In this document: piece after piece, positions 11,226 through 55,929 of the stretch
How the letters are laid out: every line of letters begins with the position of its first letter
Position numbering within the stretch: the first letter of the stretch is position 1
DNA from: Patiriisocius marinus
Lineage (GTDB): Bacteria; Bacteroidota; Bacteroidia; Flavobacteriales; Flavobacteriaceae
Length of the DNA stretch: 64,000 nt
NCBI RefSeq assembly: GCF_008974325.1
Contig: NZ_BKCG01000001.1
Span: forward strand, 868,001-932,000
Reading direction: 5' to 3'
Notes under the pieces: model-generated
What the model was told of the DNA's origin: nothing
Seen by the model: only the letters and a program-made list of their open reading frames with translations
Database searches by the model: none
Program-made: the position numbers and the translations under genes

Positions 11226-12085
11226 TGCGAATTCTTGTTACTGGAGCACATGGTCAACTAGCAAAATGTATAAAAGATGCTAGTATTAAGCACACCTCTT
11301 TAGCGTGCACTTTTGTTTCAAGAGAGCAATTAGACATTAGCAATAATGATGCGGTTGCTTTATATTTCAGAAATCATTCGTTTGACTATTGTATCAATAC
11401 AGCAGCATATACCAATGTTGAAAAAGCAGAATCAGATAAAGAAAACGCATATTTAATTAATAGCGAAGGAGTAAAAAACCTAGCAATACAATGTGAGGAG
11501 CATAATGTTGTTTTACTTCATGTGTCAACAGATTATGTTTTTGATGGTACGCAAACAGTACCGTATAAAGAGACTGATAACACCGGACCTATAAATGTTT
11601 ATGGTGCGTCTAAATTAGCTGGAGAACAGCATGTTTCGGCTTTATGCCAAAAACATTTTATTGTAAGAACTTCGTGGTTGTATTCGCAATATGGGCACAA
11701 TTTTTATACCTCAATGCTTTCACACTTTAAAAAGGGTACTGCGTTAAAAATTACAACAGAGCAAACAGGAACTCCCACAAATGCTCAGGATTTAGCTGTT
11801 GTACTACTCACTATTATTTTAAGTGAGGTTTACCAATATGGCGTGTATCATTATAGCAACGATGGCGAAGCAACTTGGTATGATTTTGCTTCGGAAATTT
11901 TAAAAAATGCAGGGCAAATACCACAAGCAAATCTTGGTAGTACCAATCATTATTCTACTTTTGCCCGAAGACCCGAACGCAGCATTTTAAATACTAAAAA
12001 AGTAAAGGAGACGTTTAGTATTGTTATTCCGCTTTGGAATGAGCGTTTAAAGGGTTTTATGGAAGATGTGTACACGCAACCTTAG
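11225..12085 (+). CDS. rfbD: dTDP-4-dehydrorhamnose reductase
   Basis: Extended short-chain dehydrogenase that reduces dTDP-4-keto-L-rhamnose with NAD(P)H. The nucleotide-binding VTGAHGQLAKCI is at residues 5-16, the active-site STDYVFDG near 105, the catalytic YGASKLAGE (YxxxK) near 132, and the RTSWLYS motif near 150. Length (286 aa) is normal. It overlaps rfbC by one base, consistent with translational coupling. Confidence 0.95.
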   Translation: MRILVTGAHGQLAKCIKDASIKHTSLACTFVSREQLDISNNDAVALYFRNHSFDYCINTAAYTNVEKAESDKENAYLINSEGVKNLAIQCEEHNVVLLHVSTDYVFDGTQTVPYKETDNTGPINVYGASKLAGEQHVSALCQKHFIVRTSWLYSQYGHNFYTSMLSHFKKGTALKITTEQTGTPTNAQDLAVVLLTIILSEVYQYGVYHYSNDGEATWYDFASEILKNAGQIPQANLGSTNHYSTFARRPERSILNTKKVKETFSIVIPLWNERLKGFMEDVYTQP

Positions 12086-12146
12086 GGTTATTTTTACATC
12101 TTTTAAAAGATTAATTTATTATAAAATTTACGTCATTAAGGATTAT

Positions 12147-13127
12147 ATGAATACAGAACAACAAACTACAGCTGCTGAGGAGATTGATTTAGGCTATTTC
12201 TTTAAACAAATTTCAAACTTTTTTAGAGGTTTTGCGCGTCTATTATTTATGATGTTTGATTTCTTTAAAAGAAACATTCTTTGGATTTCATTATTGATAA
12301 TCGCTGGAGTTGTATTAGGCTATTTTGCGGAAAGAAATTCAGCAACAATGTATCAAAACAAGTTGTTAGTTGTTCCTAACTTCGAAAGTACAGATTACTT
12401 GTATGATAAAGTTGACGAAATAAACTTAAAAAGAAAGCAAGGGGATTCTGTGTTTATTAAACAATTTACAGGAGAAAACTGGAAACGATTTAATACTATT
12501 GAAATAGAAGCGCTACCAGATATTTACAATTTTGTAACTCAATCTAGAGAGCAACTTGATGCATTCAGAATTTTATTTGAGAACCAAGAACTTTCTGAGT
12601 TTTTGGAAGACAACACTACAAGCAGATCATTTAAATACCATCGTTTAAACTTTTATGTTGCTGGTGAAGATGCTCCTGTAGTTGTGAATAAAATTATGGA
12701 GTACCTTAATCAAAATGAATTCTACAAAGGATACCAAGACATCTATCAGAAAAATATGGCTTTGCGTATTGATAAAGCAATGAAAACAGCTAATAATATT
12801 GAAAATATTATGGTTGCTTTAAGTTATGTTCCAGAAGAAAAGGATGGTGTGTTATCACTTACAGCTAACAGCAACAGTGATATGTTTGAGCTTTCAGACT
12901 ATCAAGAGGTATTGCTTGCTAAAAAGTTAGAACTTGAAAAAATGCAGCACGATCAAGACCAAATTATTAAAGTGGCAAGTGCAAATTATAAAATTGTAGA
13001 TAAAGGGATTTTTGGATTTAGTAAAAAAATCAAATTTCCAATTTATTTAGTGCTATTATTCTCATCTGTATTTTTCATTTTGTATTTGTTTAGAACGTTA
13101 AAGCAATTTTCTCAAGACAACGAGTAG
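12147..13127 (+). CDS. Wzz-like chain-length/export protein
   Basis: Inner-membrane protein with the topology of polysaccharide co-polymerases: a cytoplasmic N-terminus, a transmembrane helix near residues 45-66 (NILWISLLIIAGVVLGYF), a periplasmic domain of about 220 residues rich in helices, and a second transmembrane helix near the C-terminus (FPIYLVLLFSSVFFILYLF). There is no kinase domain. The ATG at 12147 is preferred because earlier in-frame starts overlap rfbD and give a non-conserved leader. The function in chain-length control is inferred from topology and context. Confidence 0.7.
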   Translation: MNTEQQTTAAEEIDLGYFFKQISNFFRGFARLLFMMFDFFKRNILWISLLIIAGVVLGYFAERNSATMYQNKLLVVPNFESTDYLYDKVDEINLKRKQGDSVFIKQFTGENWKRFNTIEIEALPDIYNFVTQSREQLDAFRILFENQELSEFLEDNTTSRSFKYHRLNFYVAGEDAPVVVNKIMEYLNQNEFYKGYQDIYQKNMALRIDKAMKTANNIENIMVALSYVPEEKDGVLSLTANSNSDMFELSDYQEVLLAKKLELEKMQHDQDQIIKVASANYKIVDKGIFGFSKKIKFPIYLVLLFSSVFFILYLFRTLKQFSQDNE

Positions 13128-50026: not shown

Positions 50027-51058
50027 TTACTTTTTAAACTTCAGTTTTTCAGACCTTCCTTTTTTGAATATTTTGTTACTGTTATGAGTTCCTGCACGTA
50101 ATGCTTTTTGTTCTTCAAACGGAAGTTTAATAACTTCTTGACATTCTGTTGAGCAACAATTATCCATTGTTTTTGCACATTCTTCACATTGAATAAATAG
50201 TAAATGGCAGGCTTCGTTTTCGCAATTTGTGTGGTTATCGCAAGCCGTTCCACATTGATGGCACTGTGCAATTACATCATCTGTAATACGCTCGCCACGA
50301 CGATGATCAAAAACAAAATTTTTCCCAATAAACTTGTTGTCAAGTCCTTTGTTTTCTACTTGTCTGGCGTATTCAATAATTCCACCTTCTAGTTGGAATA
50401 CATTTTTAAATCCTTTATGTTTATAATAAGCACTCGCTTTTTCGCATCGAATTCCACCGGTGCAATACATTACTAGTTTCTTTTCTTCTTTGTGGTCTTT
50501 TAGTTGTTCTTCAATAATATCTAACGAATCTCTAAAAGTATCTACATCTGGTGTAACGGCATTTTTAAAATGACCAATTTCACTTTCGTAGTGATTTCGC
50601 ATATCTACAAGTACGGTATTTGGATCTTCAATAAGGGCATTAAAAGCTTCAGCGTCTACGTGGATTCCTTTATTTCGAACATCAAAAGTTTCGTCGTTTA
50701 ATCCATCTGCAACAATTTTATTGCGCACTTTCACTTTCAGTTTTAAAAACGATTTTAGATCGTGTTCAATAGCGATGTTTAGGCGAACATCTTCAAGAAA
50801 ATAAATGCCGTCTAAAAACTCCTTAAAAGCTTCAAATTGATTTGCAGGAAGTGATAGTTGGGCATTGATACCTTCGTTTGCTACATAGATACGTCCTAGT
50901 ACCTGAAGTTCGTTCCACTTAATAAATAGGTGGTTTCTAAAAAGTTCTGGATTGCCAATTTTGGCATATTGATAGAAAGAGAGCGTCAAGCGGTCTTGTC
51001 CCGCTTCTTCGAGCAAAGCTGCTCGCTCTTTCGCGCTTAAGGTATTGTACAGTTGCAT
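50027..51058 (-). CDS. trhO: tRNA uridine(34) hydroxylase TrhO
   Basis: Rhodanese-family protein that hydroxylates U34 of certain tRNAs in bacteria (formerly YceA). An N-terminal UPF0176-type domain (about residues 20-120) is followed by a rhodanese domain with the active Cys in LVMYCTGGIRCEKASAYY near 200, and a cysteine-rich C-terminal zinc-like region (CHQCGTACDNHTNCENEAC). The 343-residue length is usual. It is divergent from the short T9SS-like ORF. Confidence 0.93.
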   Translation of the reverse strand: MQLYNTLSAKERAALLEEAGQDRLTLSFYQYAKIGNPELFRNHLFIKWNELQVLGRIYVANEGINAQLSLPANQFEAFKEFLDGIYFLEDVRLNIAIEHDLKSFLKLKVKVRNKIVADGLNDETFDVRNKGIHVDAEAFNALIEDPNTVLVDMRNHYESEIGHFKNAVTPDVDTFRDSLDIIEEQLKDHKEEKKLVMYCTGGIRCEKASAYYKHKGFKNVFQLEGGIIEYARQVENKGLDNKFIGKNFVFDHRRGERITDDVIAQCHQCGTACDNHTNCENEACHLLFIQCEECAKTMDNCCSTECQEVIKLPFEEQKALRAGTHNSNKIFKKGRSEKLKFKK

Positions 51059-52326: not shown

Positions 52327-53352
52327 ATGGCAGCAGATAAGTCAGATAAAGAAAAAGATGCTAAATTAAAAGCATTGAAACTTACGCTTGATAAACTTGA
52401 TAAAACGTACGGAAAAGGAACCGTAATGAAAATGGGTGATAAGCCTGTAGTGGAGGTAGATGTTATACCTTCAGGTTCATTAGGTCTAGATGTTGCATTA
52501 GGAGTTGGAGGATATCCAAGAGGGCGTGTAATTGAAATATACGGTCCAGAATCTTCAGGTAAAACAACATTAACTATTCACGCAATTGCTGAAGCTCAAA
52601 AGAAAGGTGGTATTGCCGCTTTTATTGATGCTGAGCACGCTTTCGATCCAGATTATGCAAAAAACCTTGGCGTTGATATTGAAAACTTAATAATTTCTCA
52701 GCCAGATAATGGAGAGCAAGCATTAGAGATTGCAGATAATTTAATTCGTTCAGGTGCAATTGATATTATTGTAATTGACTCGGTTGCCGCTTTGACTCCA
52801 AAAAGTGAAATTGAGGGTGAAATGGGAGATAGTAAAATGGGGCTTCATGCACGTTTAATGTCTCAAGCATTACGTAAACTTACGGGTTCTATTTCAAAGA
52901 CAAATTGTACAGTAATTTTCATTAACCAATTACGTGAAAAAATTGGTGTGATGTTCGGGAATCCTGAAACTACAACAGGAGGTAACGCACTTAAATTTTA
53001 CGCTTCAGTACGTTTAGATATACGCCGTTCAACTCAAATTAAAGACACTAACAGTAATGTTATGGGTAACAAAACCCGTGTTAAAGTGGTAAAAAATAAA
53101 GTAGCACCACCATTTAAAACGGTTGAGTTTGATATAATGTACGGGAAAGGAGTTTCTAAAGTAGGAGAAATAATTGATCTTGGTGTTGATTTTGAAATCA
53201 TTAATAAAGCAGGATCTTGGTTTAGCTATGACGATACAAAACTAGGGCAAGGTAGAGATGCTGTTAAAAATTTATTACTAGACAATCCAGATTTAATGGA
53301 GGAGTTAGAAATTAAAATTAAGGACAGCATTAAAGCATTAGCTGAGAGTTAA
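52327..53352 (+). CDS. recA: recombinase RecA
   Basis: ATP-dependent strand-exchange protein for homologous recombination and repair. Walker A is [14 protein letters not shown] near residue 73, Walker [14 protein letters not shown] near 148, loop L1 [10 protein letters not shown], and loop L2 [21 protein letters not shown] near 200. 341 aa, normal length. It stands alone between terminators. Confidence 0.98.
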
Positions 53353-53371: not shown

Positions 53372-53411
53372 AACTTCGGAAATACTAAGAACCCTTAGCA
53401 TTTCCGAAGTT
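53372..53411. terminator. terminator of recA
   Basis: Perfect 12-bp stem (53372-53383 with 53400-53411), extended by CTAAG/TTAG pairing in the upper stem, followed by TTTTTGTTTT. The stem includes ACTTCGGAAAT in both orientations. Confidence 0.9.
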
Positions 53412-53530
53412 TTTGTTTTAGTGAAATTATTTAAAACCTTACTTGTATTTATGCCTCATAGCAATTGACTCCTTTTTTGATGCTAAATAATCTTTTAGTG
53501 TTTTAATACTAAATGTTTAATTAGAACTGT

Positions 53531-53538
53531 TAACTTTG
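53531..53538 (+). promoter_or_regulatory. promoter of the ECF sigma factor operon
   Basis: TAacTTTG matches the housekeeping consensus and would give a leader of about 135 bases before the TTG start at 53680. Confidence 0.5.
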
Positions 53539-53679
53539 GGTAACTAACCAAAATACCAACAACCTGAACGCAACCCTCTTCATATTCAAGCATCTACTTG
53601 CTGTAGAAACCAAGGTTGTTATGGTTCAGGCACGTCTATTTAAGGCTTGTTTTGTAATTGTTAAACCAACGTACTACGC

Positions 53680-54213
53680 TTGACTTTAGAGGAACTCATA
53701 CACGGTTGTAAACAGAAGGACGCTAGGGCACAAGGTGAATTATACAAGCGCTACAGTGGCGTATTGTTCTCTATTTGCTTGCGCTATTCCCCTAATAAAA
53801 CTGAGGCTGAGGATAATTTGCAGGATGCGTTTATAACGATATTTAATAAAGCAGAACAATTTAAAGACAAAGGTTCTTTTGAAGGATGGATAAAACGAAT
53901 TACCGTAAACACTGTTCTTCAGAAATACCGAAAACAAAAGGTTTTTGATATTAAAGATGAAGGACAAATTGAGGATACAATTGATGATGACATTGTTGAT
54001 GAAGGATTGCCGTTAGATTATCTTTTAGGAATTATCCAAGAATTACCAGATCAATATAGGTTGGTTTTTTCAATGTATGTTATGGATGGTTATTCTCACA
54101 AAGAAATAGGCGAAATGTTAGGTATTAGTAACGGTACGTCTAAATCTAATCTAGCCAGAGCTAGAGGAATATTAAAAACAAAAATAGAGGCCTATAGGTC
54201 TCAACAAGAGTAG
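53680..54213 (+). CDS. ECF-type RNA polymerase sigma factor
   Basis: 177-residue extracytoplasmic-function sigma factor. Region 2 (YSPNKTEAEDNLQDAFITIFNKAEQFKDKGSFEGWIKRI) spans about residues 35-80, and region 4 (LPDQYRLVFSMYVMDGYSHKEIGEMLGISNGTSKSNLARAR) about 120-165. The start is TTG at 53680: the frame has a stop at 53662 and no other start before region 2. The next gene, a predicted dual-membrane anti-sigma protein, follows after 19 bp and is very likely its regulator. Confidence 0.92.
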   Translation: MTLEELIHGCKQKDARAQGELYKRYSGVLFSICLRYSPNKTEAEDNLQDAFITIFNKAEQFKDKGSFEGWIKRITVNTVLQKYRKQKVFDIKDEGQIEDTIDDDIVDEGLPLDYLLGIIQELPDQYRLVFSMYVMDGYSHKEIGEMLGISNGTSKSNLARARGILKTKIEAYRSQQE

Positions 54214-54232
54214 GTTTGAGTATAAAGTAACA

Positions 54233-55834
54233 ATGAGTAACAAAAAAAACATAGATCAACTTTTTAAGGAGCGCTTCAAGAATCATGAAGTAGCACCTGC
54301 TCCGCAAGTTTGGGAAAATATCCAAGCGGCAATGCGTGAGGAAAAGAAAGATCGAAAAGTAATTCCACTTTGGTGGAAAGTAGGAGGAGTCGCAGCTTTG
54401 CTAGCGATTCTATTTACTATTGGCTCAACTGTTTTCAATACGAATGAAACAAATAGTTTAGTAAAACAAACCAACGAGATTGAAAAAGCAGCTAATGATA
54501 TCTCTCCTCAAATAGATACGGAGAAAGAATTTACGACTACCAATAACGCTATAGAAGTTGCAGAAAAATCGACTAAAGATTCTCAAAATGAGCAAGAAGG
54601 TAATGCGGCGACTAATTTAAACGCAACTGCTGTACAGCAGAATAGTACTCAAGTTGTTTCAGAACATGTGAATGAACAACGCAATTCTCATAAAGATGAT
54701 TTTAAAAGAAACAACAGTTTTTCTAAGCGGAATGAATCTACAACAATTGCTAAAAACGAATCAAATTCAGTTATAAACAACAATTCTTCTAATCGTATAA
54801 ATCATTCTAATAGTATTCCAGCGCCTAAAATAAACAGAATTGTTTTAGATAAAAACGCATCTTCTTCTACGGTATCAAAAGAAGTAATTGCTCAGACTAC
54901 CCAAAGTGAAATGACAGTAATTAAAAATAAATCTTCTGAAATTAGCAAACCAAGTACAGCTATAAATTCAGATAACGCTATTGCTTCTGAAGCAGAAGTA
55001 GCTAAAACATCTACTATTTCAGAAGGAAAAAAGCAATCAATTTTTGATGCTATTGAAGAACAAAAAGCAGTAACAAATAGCGAAGAAGCTGTTGCTGTTA
55101 AAGATGTTCCTTCAGATAGGTGGGAGGTAGCTCCTAACTTTGCTCCGGTATATTACAATACATTAACAGAAGGATCTTCCATAGACGGAAGTTTTGCAGA
55201 TAACAGTCAAAGTGGTGATGTAAACATTAGTTACGGTGTTGCTGTTAGTTATGCTGTGAGTAATCGTTTAAGTATTCGGTCTGGAATAAACAATGTGAAT
55301 TTAGGCTACAGTACTGGTGGGTTAGAACTTGGTGAAGGTGATACTAACGCAGCATTGAGAAATATAAATTATAATGGAAGTGGCCAAGTAATTATACCTC
55401 AGGATGAGGGTACTTTCGCTTCTCAGAACAATAAAGAAGGGTTTGGGAATATTACACCAAAATCTACTAATGGCGAAGCATTTATAAATCAAAATATTAC
55501 TTATTACGAAGTGCCTTTAGAACTTAAATATTCACTTTTTAACACAAAACTTGGAGTGAATGTAATAGGTGGATTGAGCACGCTCTTTTTAGGAGATAAT
55601 GAAATAACAGTAAGTGCAGGAGATTTTAGTGAAACTTTAGGGGAAGCTAATAATCTTTCAAATGTGAGTTTTTCTACAAATGTAGGGCTTGGATTTGATT
55701 ATAAATTTTCTGAAAAATTTAAGTTTAATGTTGAACCTATGTTCAAATATCAACTTAATCCTTATACGGATAGCAGTGTTAATTTCCAGCCATACTATGT
55801 TGGTGTTTACACTGGATTGAGTTATAAGTTTTAA
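54233..55834 (+). CDS. dual-membrane anti-sigma/outer-membrane beta-barrel protein
   Basis: 533 residues with an unusual order. Residues 1-43 form a cytoplasmic, charged anti-sigma-like segment (LFKERFKNHEVAPAPQVWENIQAAM); 46-67 form one inner-membrane helix (WWKVGGVAALLAILFTIG). About 68-295 is a low-complexity linker rich in S, N, T, E, K and Q, and about 296-533 is a C-terminal outer-membrane beta-barrel (alternating strands, final residues LSYKF). There is no signal peptidase site. The protein would span both membranes, with the linker crossing the periplasm. This is the layout described for Dma anti-sigma proteins of Bacteroides thetaiotaomicron (from memory), which control outer-membrane vesicle formation. 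The gene is 19 bp after the sigma factor. Confidence 0.8.
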   Translation: MSNKKNIDQLFKERFKNHEVAPAPQVWENIQAAMREEKKDRKVIPLWWKVGGVAALLAILFTIGSTVFNTNETNSLVKQTNEIEKAANDISPQIDTEKEFTTTNNAIEVAEKSTKDSQNEQEGNAATNLNATAVQQNSTQVVSEHVNEQRNSHKDDFKRNNSFSKRNESTTIAKNESNSVINNNSSNRINHSNSIPAPKINRIVLDKNASSSTVSKEVIAQTTQSEMTVIKNKSSEISKPSTAINSDNAIASEAEVAKTSTISEGKKQSIFDAIEEQKAVTNSEEAVAVKDVPSDRWEVAPNFAPVYYNTLTEGSSIDGSFADNSQSGDVNISYGVAVSYAVSNRLSIRSGINNVNLGYSTGGLELGEGDTNAALRNINYNGSGQVIIPQDEGTFASQNNKEGFGNITPKSTNGEAFINQNITYYEVPLELKYSLFNTKLGVNVIGGLSTLFLGDNEITVSAGDFSETLGEANNLSNVSFSTNVGLGFDYKFSEKFKFNVEPMFKYQLNPYTDSSVNFQPYYVGVYTGLSYKF

Positions 55835-55897: not shown

Positions 55898-55929
55898 AAA
55901 ACCATCTTATCGCCATGAGGTGGTTTTTT
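55898..55929. terminator. terminator between convergent genes
   Basis: AAAACCATCT pairs with AGGTGGTTTT (one G-T pair), followed by a T tract, between the barrel gene and plsC. Confidence 0.7.

Follow-up and report, generated by a model that had tools for sequence, protein, structure and literature searches.

Does a flavobacterium place one of its sigma factors under a single polypeptide that reaches from the cytoplasm across both membranes and, if so, which genes would such a pair switch? The question is raised by a locus of Patiriisocius marinus that lies in a window (the whole stretch of DNA analysed) of 64,000 nucleotides. A first-pass annotation of this window had described a sigma factor with regions 2 and 4 and, 19 bp further on, a 533-residue protein, and both open reading frames and the Pfam matches confirm it. 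The ECF sigma gene (53680..54213, + strand; 177 aa, with a TTG start placed from the ORF list, Pfam and the start codons of relatives) matches Pfam sigma region 2 (5e-16) and region 4 (2.6e-15), both above cut-off, and the gap of 19 bp leads to the frame of the 533-aa protein (54233..55834, +), which its homologues and an AlphaFold2 model mark as a dual-membrane anti-sigma-like protein of the Dma/Reo type. The module is thus where it had been placed, although the sigma gene begins at 53680 and the span claimed from 53531 merely includes upstream sequence. Among the best 25 of 101 NCBIfam families, the general sigma70-ECF superfamily is the only model that the sigma protein matches above cut-off; against NF058625 (GFO_1088/PG0214 ECF sigma) it scores 82.2 bits, the curated value being 130. 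Upstream lies recA (52327..53352, +), identified from its ORF and the loci of relatives, and the pair is followed by a terminator-like hairpin with a T tail (55909..55924, +; hairpin search). Another hairpin with a T tail, between recA and the operon (53372-53414), was read by eye and is absent from the program-made hairpin list.

The AlphaFold2 model, for which a 28-row alignment served as input, divides the 533-aa protein into parts that fit a chain anchored in both membranes. Residues 1-45 (54233..54367, +) form a helical domain, predicted to be cytoplasmic and sigma-binding from the model, a conserved motif and the gene linkage; its helices (4-14 and 24-39) are drawn with modest confidence, block pLDDT being 54-68 across residues 1-50. 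The helix that follows (aa 46-68; 54368..54436, +) is assigned to the inner membrane by AlphaFold2, hydropathy and charge, and the mean net charge in 28 homologues, +3.5 in the 25 residues before it and -3.2 after it, fits a predicted N-in topology. These three predictions agree with the cytoplasmic N-terminus and single inner-membrane helix that had been proposed. Next comes a tether rich in N, S, T, E and K (aa 69-266; 54437..55030, +), disordered according to the model (pLDDT below 50, mostly about 30) and similar in relatives, where the distance from helix to barrel is 171-267 residues (median 214, measured in 85 of 101). The claim of a low-complexity linker of some 230 residues therefore stands as to a long disordered stretch, but its length is nearer to 200 residues.

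A further helix (aa 270-290; 55040..55102, +; AlphaFold2, conservation) stands right ahead of an OmpA-like beta-barrel of eight long strands (aa 297-533; 55121..55831, +), supported by AlphaFold2, Foldseek and relatives. The strands, from 297 to 532, mostly have pLDDT of 90 or more, and a C-terminal F is found in all 101 relatives. In a Foldseek search of the PDB, OmpA ranks first (TM-score by target 0.64) and again fourth (0.74), with other outer-membrane barrels at ranks 2 and 3; the Pfam barrel models PF13568 (4.4e-5) and PF13505 (1.4e-4) match below their gathering scores. The earlier claim of an outer-membrane barrel ending in F thus came through a check that could have overturned it. A barrel so generic in its likeness to OmpA invites the interpretation that the protein simply gauges assembly: since its own barrel needs the barrel assembly of the cell, an unfolded barrel would mean a lost anti-sigma factor. 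The BcpT toxin induces genes in Phocaeicola that overlap with those induced by the BamA inhibitor bacteroidetocin A, an effect which the authors, in the available text, ascribe to envelope stress (PMC9308784), as this interpretation would expect. However, 41 of the 48 columns invariant among 28 homologues fall in the barrel, which could equally mean a ligand, and we hold the assembly interpretation to be nearly as probable as its opposite.

Inner-membrane anti-sigma factors are commonly controlled through stepwise proteolysis, and a disordered tether of about 200 residues would be an easy target for a protease. The chain may then work as RseA does, its tether being cut under stress, with the barrel no more than a cap under the control of the protease and no signal passing along the intact polypeptide. 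Loose AxA-like sites near the transmembrane helix in 9 of the 28 homologues would suit such a switch. Against it, no cleavage motif is conserved across the family, no RseA-type Pfam match appears up to E=1, and conservation falls on the barrel and not on the tether. A cleavage site after the helix had been named as the finding that would count against an uncleaved chain, and a simple search for an AxA-like motif finds none there in the window protein. Proteolytic switching is a serious possibility, though one that we would sooner doubt than accept.

The precedent named for this architecture is real. In Bacteroides thetaiotaomicron, Dma1/Das1 and Dma2/Das2 are pairs of a dual-membrane anti-sigma factor and its sigma factor, and their describers, in the text available, call the Dma family Bacteroidota-wide (PMC13088901); EcfO/Reo pairs are known from Phocaeicola (available parts of PMC9308784 and PMC13114119). 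As far as these sources extend, loss of the anti-sigma factor, or stress, raises the sigma gene itself and NigD surface lipoproteins, lengthens O-antigen, or increases vesicles (PMC13088901, PMC9308784, PMC13114119). The flavobacterial pair resembles Dma/Das in its order of predicted sigma-binding N-terminus, transmembrane helix, long disordered tether and C-terminal barrel, as well as in its adjacent ECF sigma gene, and das2 rises when dma2 is lost (PMC13088901, in part), just as the candidate self-promoter described below would predict. It differs in its linkage to recA and in its predicted targets, which are lipoproteins and mini membrane proteins. With EcfO/Reo of Bacteroides fragilis and Phocaeicola vulgatus it shares a dual-membrane barrel anti-sigma factor that drives, in those species, surface lipoproteins (NigD) (PMC9308784, PMC13114119, available portions). 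The shared architecture, the adjoining sigma gene and the conserved candidate self-promoter support a module of the same type, as had been suggested, and the assignment to the Dma/Reo type is supported by likeness of architecture and gene order rather than by a sequence match.

Cell-surface signalling by FecR and FecA likewise leads from the outer membrane to an ECF sigma factor in the cytoplasm, through two proteins and a TonB-dependent receptor. Here, unlike there, a single protein with an OmpA-like barrel would serve, and neither a FecR domain nor a TonB-receptor plug is matched in the 533-aa protein by Pfam up to E=1.

How widely the pair is kept can be judged from several samples. The 533-aa protein has matches at 1e-5 in 55 of 98 genomes, its own included, and a sigma gene lies directly upstream in all 30 fetched loci, with recA seen in 28; these two counts together argue that the module is no product of chance. 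Within the family, 242 of 299 genomes, the window's own among them, have a profile match at 1e-10. Of 80 named loci, some of them from genomes already covered by the 98-genome search, 79 have both the adjoining sigma gene and recA, and the remaining one is a contig stub; the nearest of the 80 are Patiriisocius, and Ulvibacter, Aequorivita, Winogradskyella, Maribacter, Gelidibacter and more are among them. In most of the Flavobacteriaceae sampled, judging by sequence matches, the module is present and linked to recA. Beyond the family, profile A1 (from an alignment that leaves out two of the 30 loci, L004 and L007; alignment A2 leaves out eight) matches 34 of 148 genomes of the phylum at E<=1e-3, only 3 of them outside the class. 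That the protein could be a passive tether between the membranes, its link to the sigma factor incidental, has in its favour the long tether with a membrane anchor at either end. The sigma gene, however, stands directly upstream wherever both can be scored, and the N-terminal domain adjoins a sigma gene in the barrel-less form too, leaving this explanation hardly credible.

That barrel-less form emerges when the N-terminal domain is searched for by itself. In all 35 loci from the phylum search and from relatives (L142 being the same place as L029), a sigma gene precedes its profile match, and a barrel profile match is present in some and absent from others. Of 12 further stretches, several of which coincide with earlier loci, 11 hold both the sigma gene and the N-terminal domain and one holds neither. 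The genome of the window has a barrel-less paralogous pair itself (L177; G000:C9:82300-86000), with the sigma gene directly upstream. Pairs of this kind share a related N-terminal domain and transmembrane region with the module, and differ in having no fused barrel; L177 has a separate ORF after the pair instead, whose start looks by eye like a signal peptide of an exported protein and which has no Pfam match. In the sigma tree, the rows with a barrel that come from the family and its order, 30 in all, form one group (support 94/92), while outside that group barrel and barrel-less forms are mixed and many forks are weak. No natural fusion of sigma and anti-sigma factor was found among 47 loci scanned.

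In many flavobacteria the operon begins with yet another gene, for a lipoprotein of about 140 aa, between recA and the sigma gene (16 of the first 30 loci, L013-L020 and L022-L029, and 24 of the 80 named loci, L189-L268). Its product has two invariant cysteines besides the lipid one, a predicted beta-sandwich and no Pfam family; the best match in the window genome (E 0.33) is too weak to count as a clear copy. The arrangement recalls EcfO/Reo, where one nigD gene of the regulon (03762) adjoins the sigma gene (03761) by locus number in the accessible text, much as the lipoprotein gene precedes sigma in those 24 loci; the two nevertheless differ, since the flavobacterial protein lacks a NigD match. 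The idea that it is NigD was in fact dropped after no Pfam NigD match appeared in 28 members. A sequence search of the PDB gave nothing up to E=1, and a fold search gave nothing at 1e-3, only weak generic matches (best E 4.9e-3).

The start codons of the two genes hint at how the sigma factor could be restrained. In 100 of 101 non-redundant relatives (L001-L030, L189-L268) the sigma gene, which starts at 53680 in the window, begins with TTG or GTG and not ATG, an in-frame ATG lying further upstream in 4 of those 100, whereas the anti-sigma gene is read from ATG in the same comparison. Given this difference, the sigma factor would stay scarce, in deficit at rest. The weak start codon as such is strongly kept across relatives. 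Ahead of it runs an 83-nt leader (53597..53679, +) which, from its sequence and folding, has no clear RNA structure. An RNA element was suspected there because of repeats seen by eye before the sigma gene, and was discarded, since a 181-nt stretch with the leader folds no better than shuffles (z -0.48). Visual inspection of the window also suggested a small overlapping upstream ORF, which was set aside because none was evident by eye in the upstream sequences of relatives that were inspected.

If the pair regulates itself, its operon should carry a promoter of its own, and the upstream regions of relatives do share a motif, CGCAACC followed by 15 variable bases and C/T-ATCTA (CGCAACC-N15-YATCTA), of constant spacing. 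In the window it reads as a candidate ECF promoter of the operon (53569..53596, +), with the -35 element CGCAACC at 53569-53575, a 15-bp spacer and the -10 element CATCTA at 53591-53596, proposed on the strength of the relatives, the excess of the motif and its co-occurrence with the module. Of the first 30 loci, 23 have it ahead of the operon, and so do 66 of the 80 named loci under a slightly looser pattern. Where the lipoprotein gene comes first, the motif, when found, precedes that gene (9 of 16 loci and 16 of 24), a placement that marks it as a sign of the operon start. The motif differs from the ECF motif of Flavobacterium psychrophilum SM6, considered as a possible equivalent and rejected, as the latter has a CGT -10 box (PMC9723704, in the text available); this is the single flavobacterial study of a sigma regulon among the literature found.

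Across the 299 genomes of the family the exact motif has 609 sites, as opposed to 22 for a reversed-pattern control, far too many for chance. At least one site occurs in 211 of the genomes: 207 of the 242 with the barrel protein, 35 of which thus have none, as against 4 of the 57 without it. At least two sites occur in 157 of 242 and 0 of 57, respectively, all these being raw genome counts that ignore kinship. Genome size is a partial confounder of this co-occurrence, as most barrel-negative genomes are small; if the comparison is limited to genomes of at least 2.6 Mb, a site is present in 189 of 220 with the barrel protein and 2 of 13 without, these 13 including a site-free genome of 2.7 Mb (G300). 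When 14 of the 57 negative genomes were searched more loosely (E up to 1), none yielded a full barrel protein and 7 yielded weak partial matches; two of these 7 (G285 and G310) have one site each along with a weak, short relative of the protein, and five have no site. One genome (G173) has eight identical copies of one motif-containing sequence, perhaps a repeat or mobile element.

The sites could of course belong to another sigma factor and stand before the operon by coincidence. The window genome does have at least one more ECF sigma factor of this kind (L177), and four barrel-negative genomes have one site each. Against this, the motif tracks the start of the operon, and the barrel-negative genomes, none of the 57 with two sites, stay near the control rate, so that we consider such a coincidence unlikely; the stretch around the barrel-less pair L177 has no motif site. 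The operon's self-promoter remains a candidate, and we infer from these patterns that its own sigma factor would read it. The window genome has only two exact sites, which makes its regulon look small.

What the sites would control was read from the DNA downstream of 97 of 123 sites in 60 genomes; many of the unread ones adjoin recA. An ORF of at least 70 aa begins within 260 nt behind 74 of the 97, and 50 of the 74 are lipoprotein-like by a rule of our own, which misses a few obvious ones (e.g., L093, L094 and L100). Applied to the 52 window ORFs that reach 100 aa, a longer limit than that of the target set, the same rule picks 4. At least two acidic residues come just after the lipid cysteine in 42 of the 50, compared with 37 of 75 lipoprotein-like ORFs that lack an exact site in front; this comparison set has members of the operon family left in it. 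In this phylum acidic signals after the cysteine direct lipoproteins to the surface (PMC5080379), and in Bacteroides SusG is packed efficiently into vesicles only with such a signal, lipoproteins with export-like signals being a class that is packed (PMC6222051), all according to the available parts of these papers. The target set, as predicted from motif sites, is rich in lipoproteins with export-like signals.

Other genes behind the sites are of different kinds. Proteins of only 28-38 aa, with a single hydrophobic segment by eye, follow sites in 11 loci (L036, at 1373-1480 on the - strand, L052, L064, L065, L074, L078, L090, L113, L116, L125 and L130), among which is the second exact site of the window genome; in three of these loci (L036, L113 and L074) an ung gene is also present. 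In 8 genomes (L047, L049, L050, L061, L069, L070, L135 and L136) a site near the sigma locus is followed by a peptide of 30 aa whose last residues are NCKADGG or nearly so, and in 6 a site is followed by the sigma gene itself. In L051 and L063 the ORF behind the site resembles the window ORF 50027-51058, which we take to be trhO. Two of the 97 sites have no called ORF, and 23, some of which may be chance occurrences, fall within an open frame longer than 130 codons. The window also has a candidate site with one mismatch (12075..12102, +), 44 nt before ORF 12147-13127, which encodes a membrane protein that has, by eye, hydrophobic segments close to either end; the ORF belongs to what is probably a surface-polysaccharide cluster. 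This cluster was rejected as a target after no comparable site was found before 15 related ORFs, and a by-eye guess that the ORF is a chain-length regulator had no Pfam support.

Sequence thus establishes a predicted anatomy, a linkage, a promoter motif, its co-occurrence with the module and a predicted target set rich in lipoproteins, and the account that we find quite probable is an autoregulated switch of the Dma/Reo kind, which would respond to the state of the outer membrane and remodel the surface lipoproteome. At rest, the N-terminal domain of the 533-aa protein would keep the sigma factor at the inner membrane, the disordered tether would span the periplasm and the barrel would sit in the outer membrane, the non-ATG start of sigma against the ATG of its partner leaving sigma in deficit. 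When a change in the outer membrane leaves the barrel uninserted, removed or bound, the hold on sigma would be lost, be it by release or by proteolysis. The freed sigma factor would then read the CGCAACC-N15-YATCTA promoters, that of its own operon first and then those of surface lipoprotein and very small membrane protein genes, and the cell would thereby rebuild its outer surface, possibly with some role for vesicles, to which the lipoproteins with export-like signals in the predicted target set come closest as support. The parallel in outcome with the Bacteroidales systems, by analogy through surface lipoproteins, appears close.

The Dma/Reo architecture was already known; the recA linkage, the candidate promoter and the predicted regulon are new, and no report of the flavobacterial pair or its promoter is among the open-licence literature matches listed. 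In the literature found, and as far as its available text goes, gut Bacteroidales are the only bacteria in which the module has been investigated, in spite of its being called Bacteroidota-wide by its describers. It is real and well conserved in a large and mostly non-gut family, where a sharp candidate promoter makes what was a structural curiosity into a regulon that can be put to the test, with 609 candidate sites in 299 genomes, controlled by a reversed pattern and by genomes lacking the gene. The question of how a signal passes along a chain through both membranes would become approachable in other laboratory strains, and attention is drawn to membrane proteins so small that annotation may overlook them. 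More tentatively, and with rather more doubt than belief, the recA-linked switch may be the general regulator of the outer surface of Flavobacteriaceae, reading the state of the outer membrane through a single chain and setting the repertoire of surface lipoproteins and vesicle cargo together with that of the 28-38-aa membrane proteins; it would then be the flavobacterial counterpart of sigma-E.
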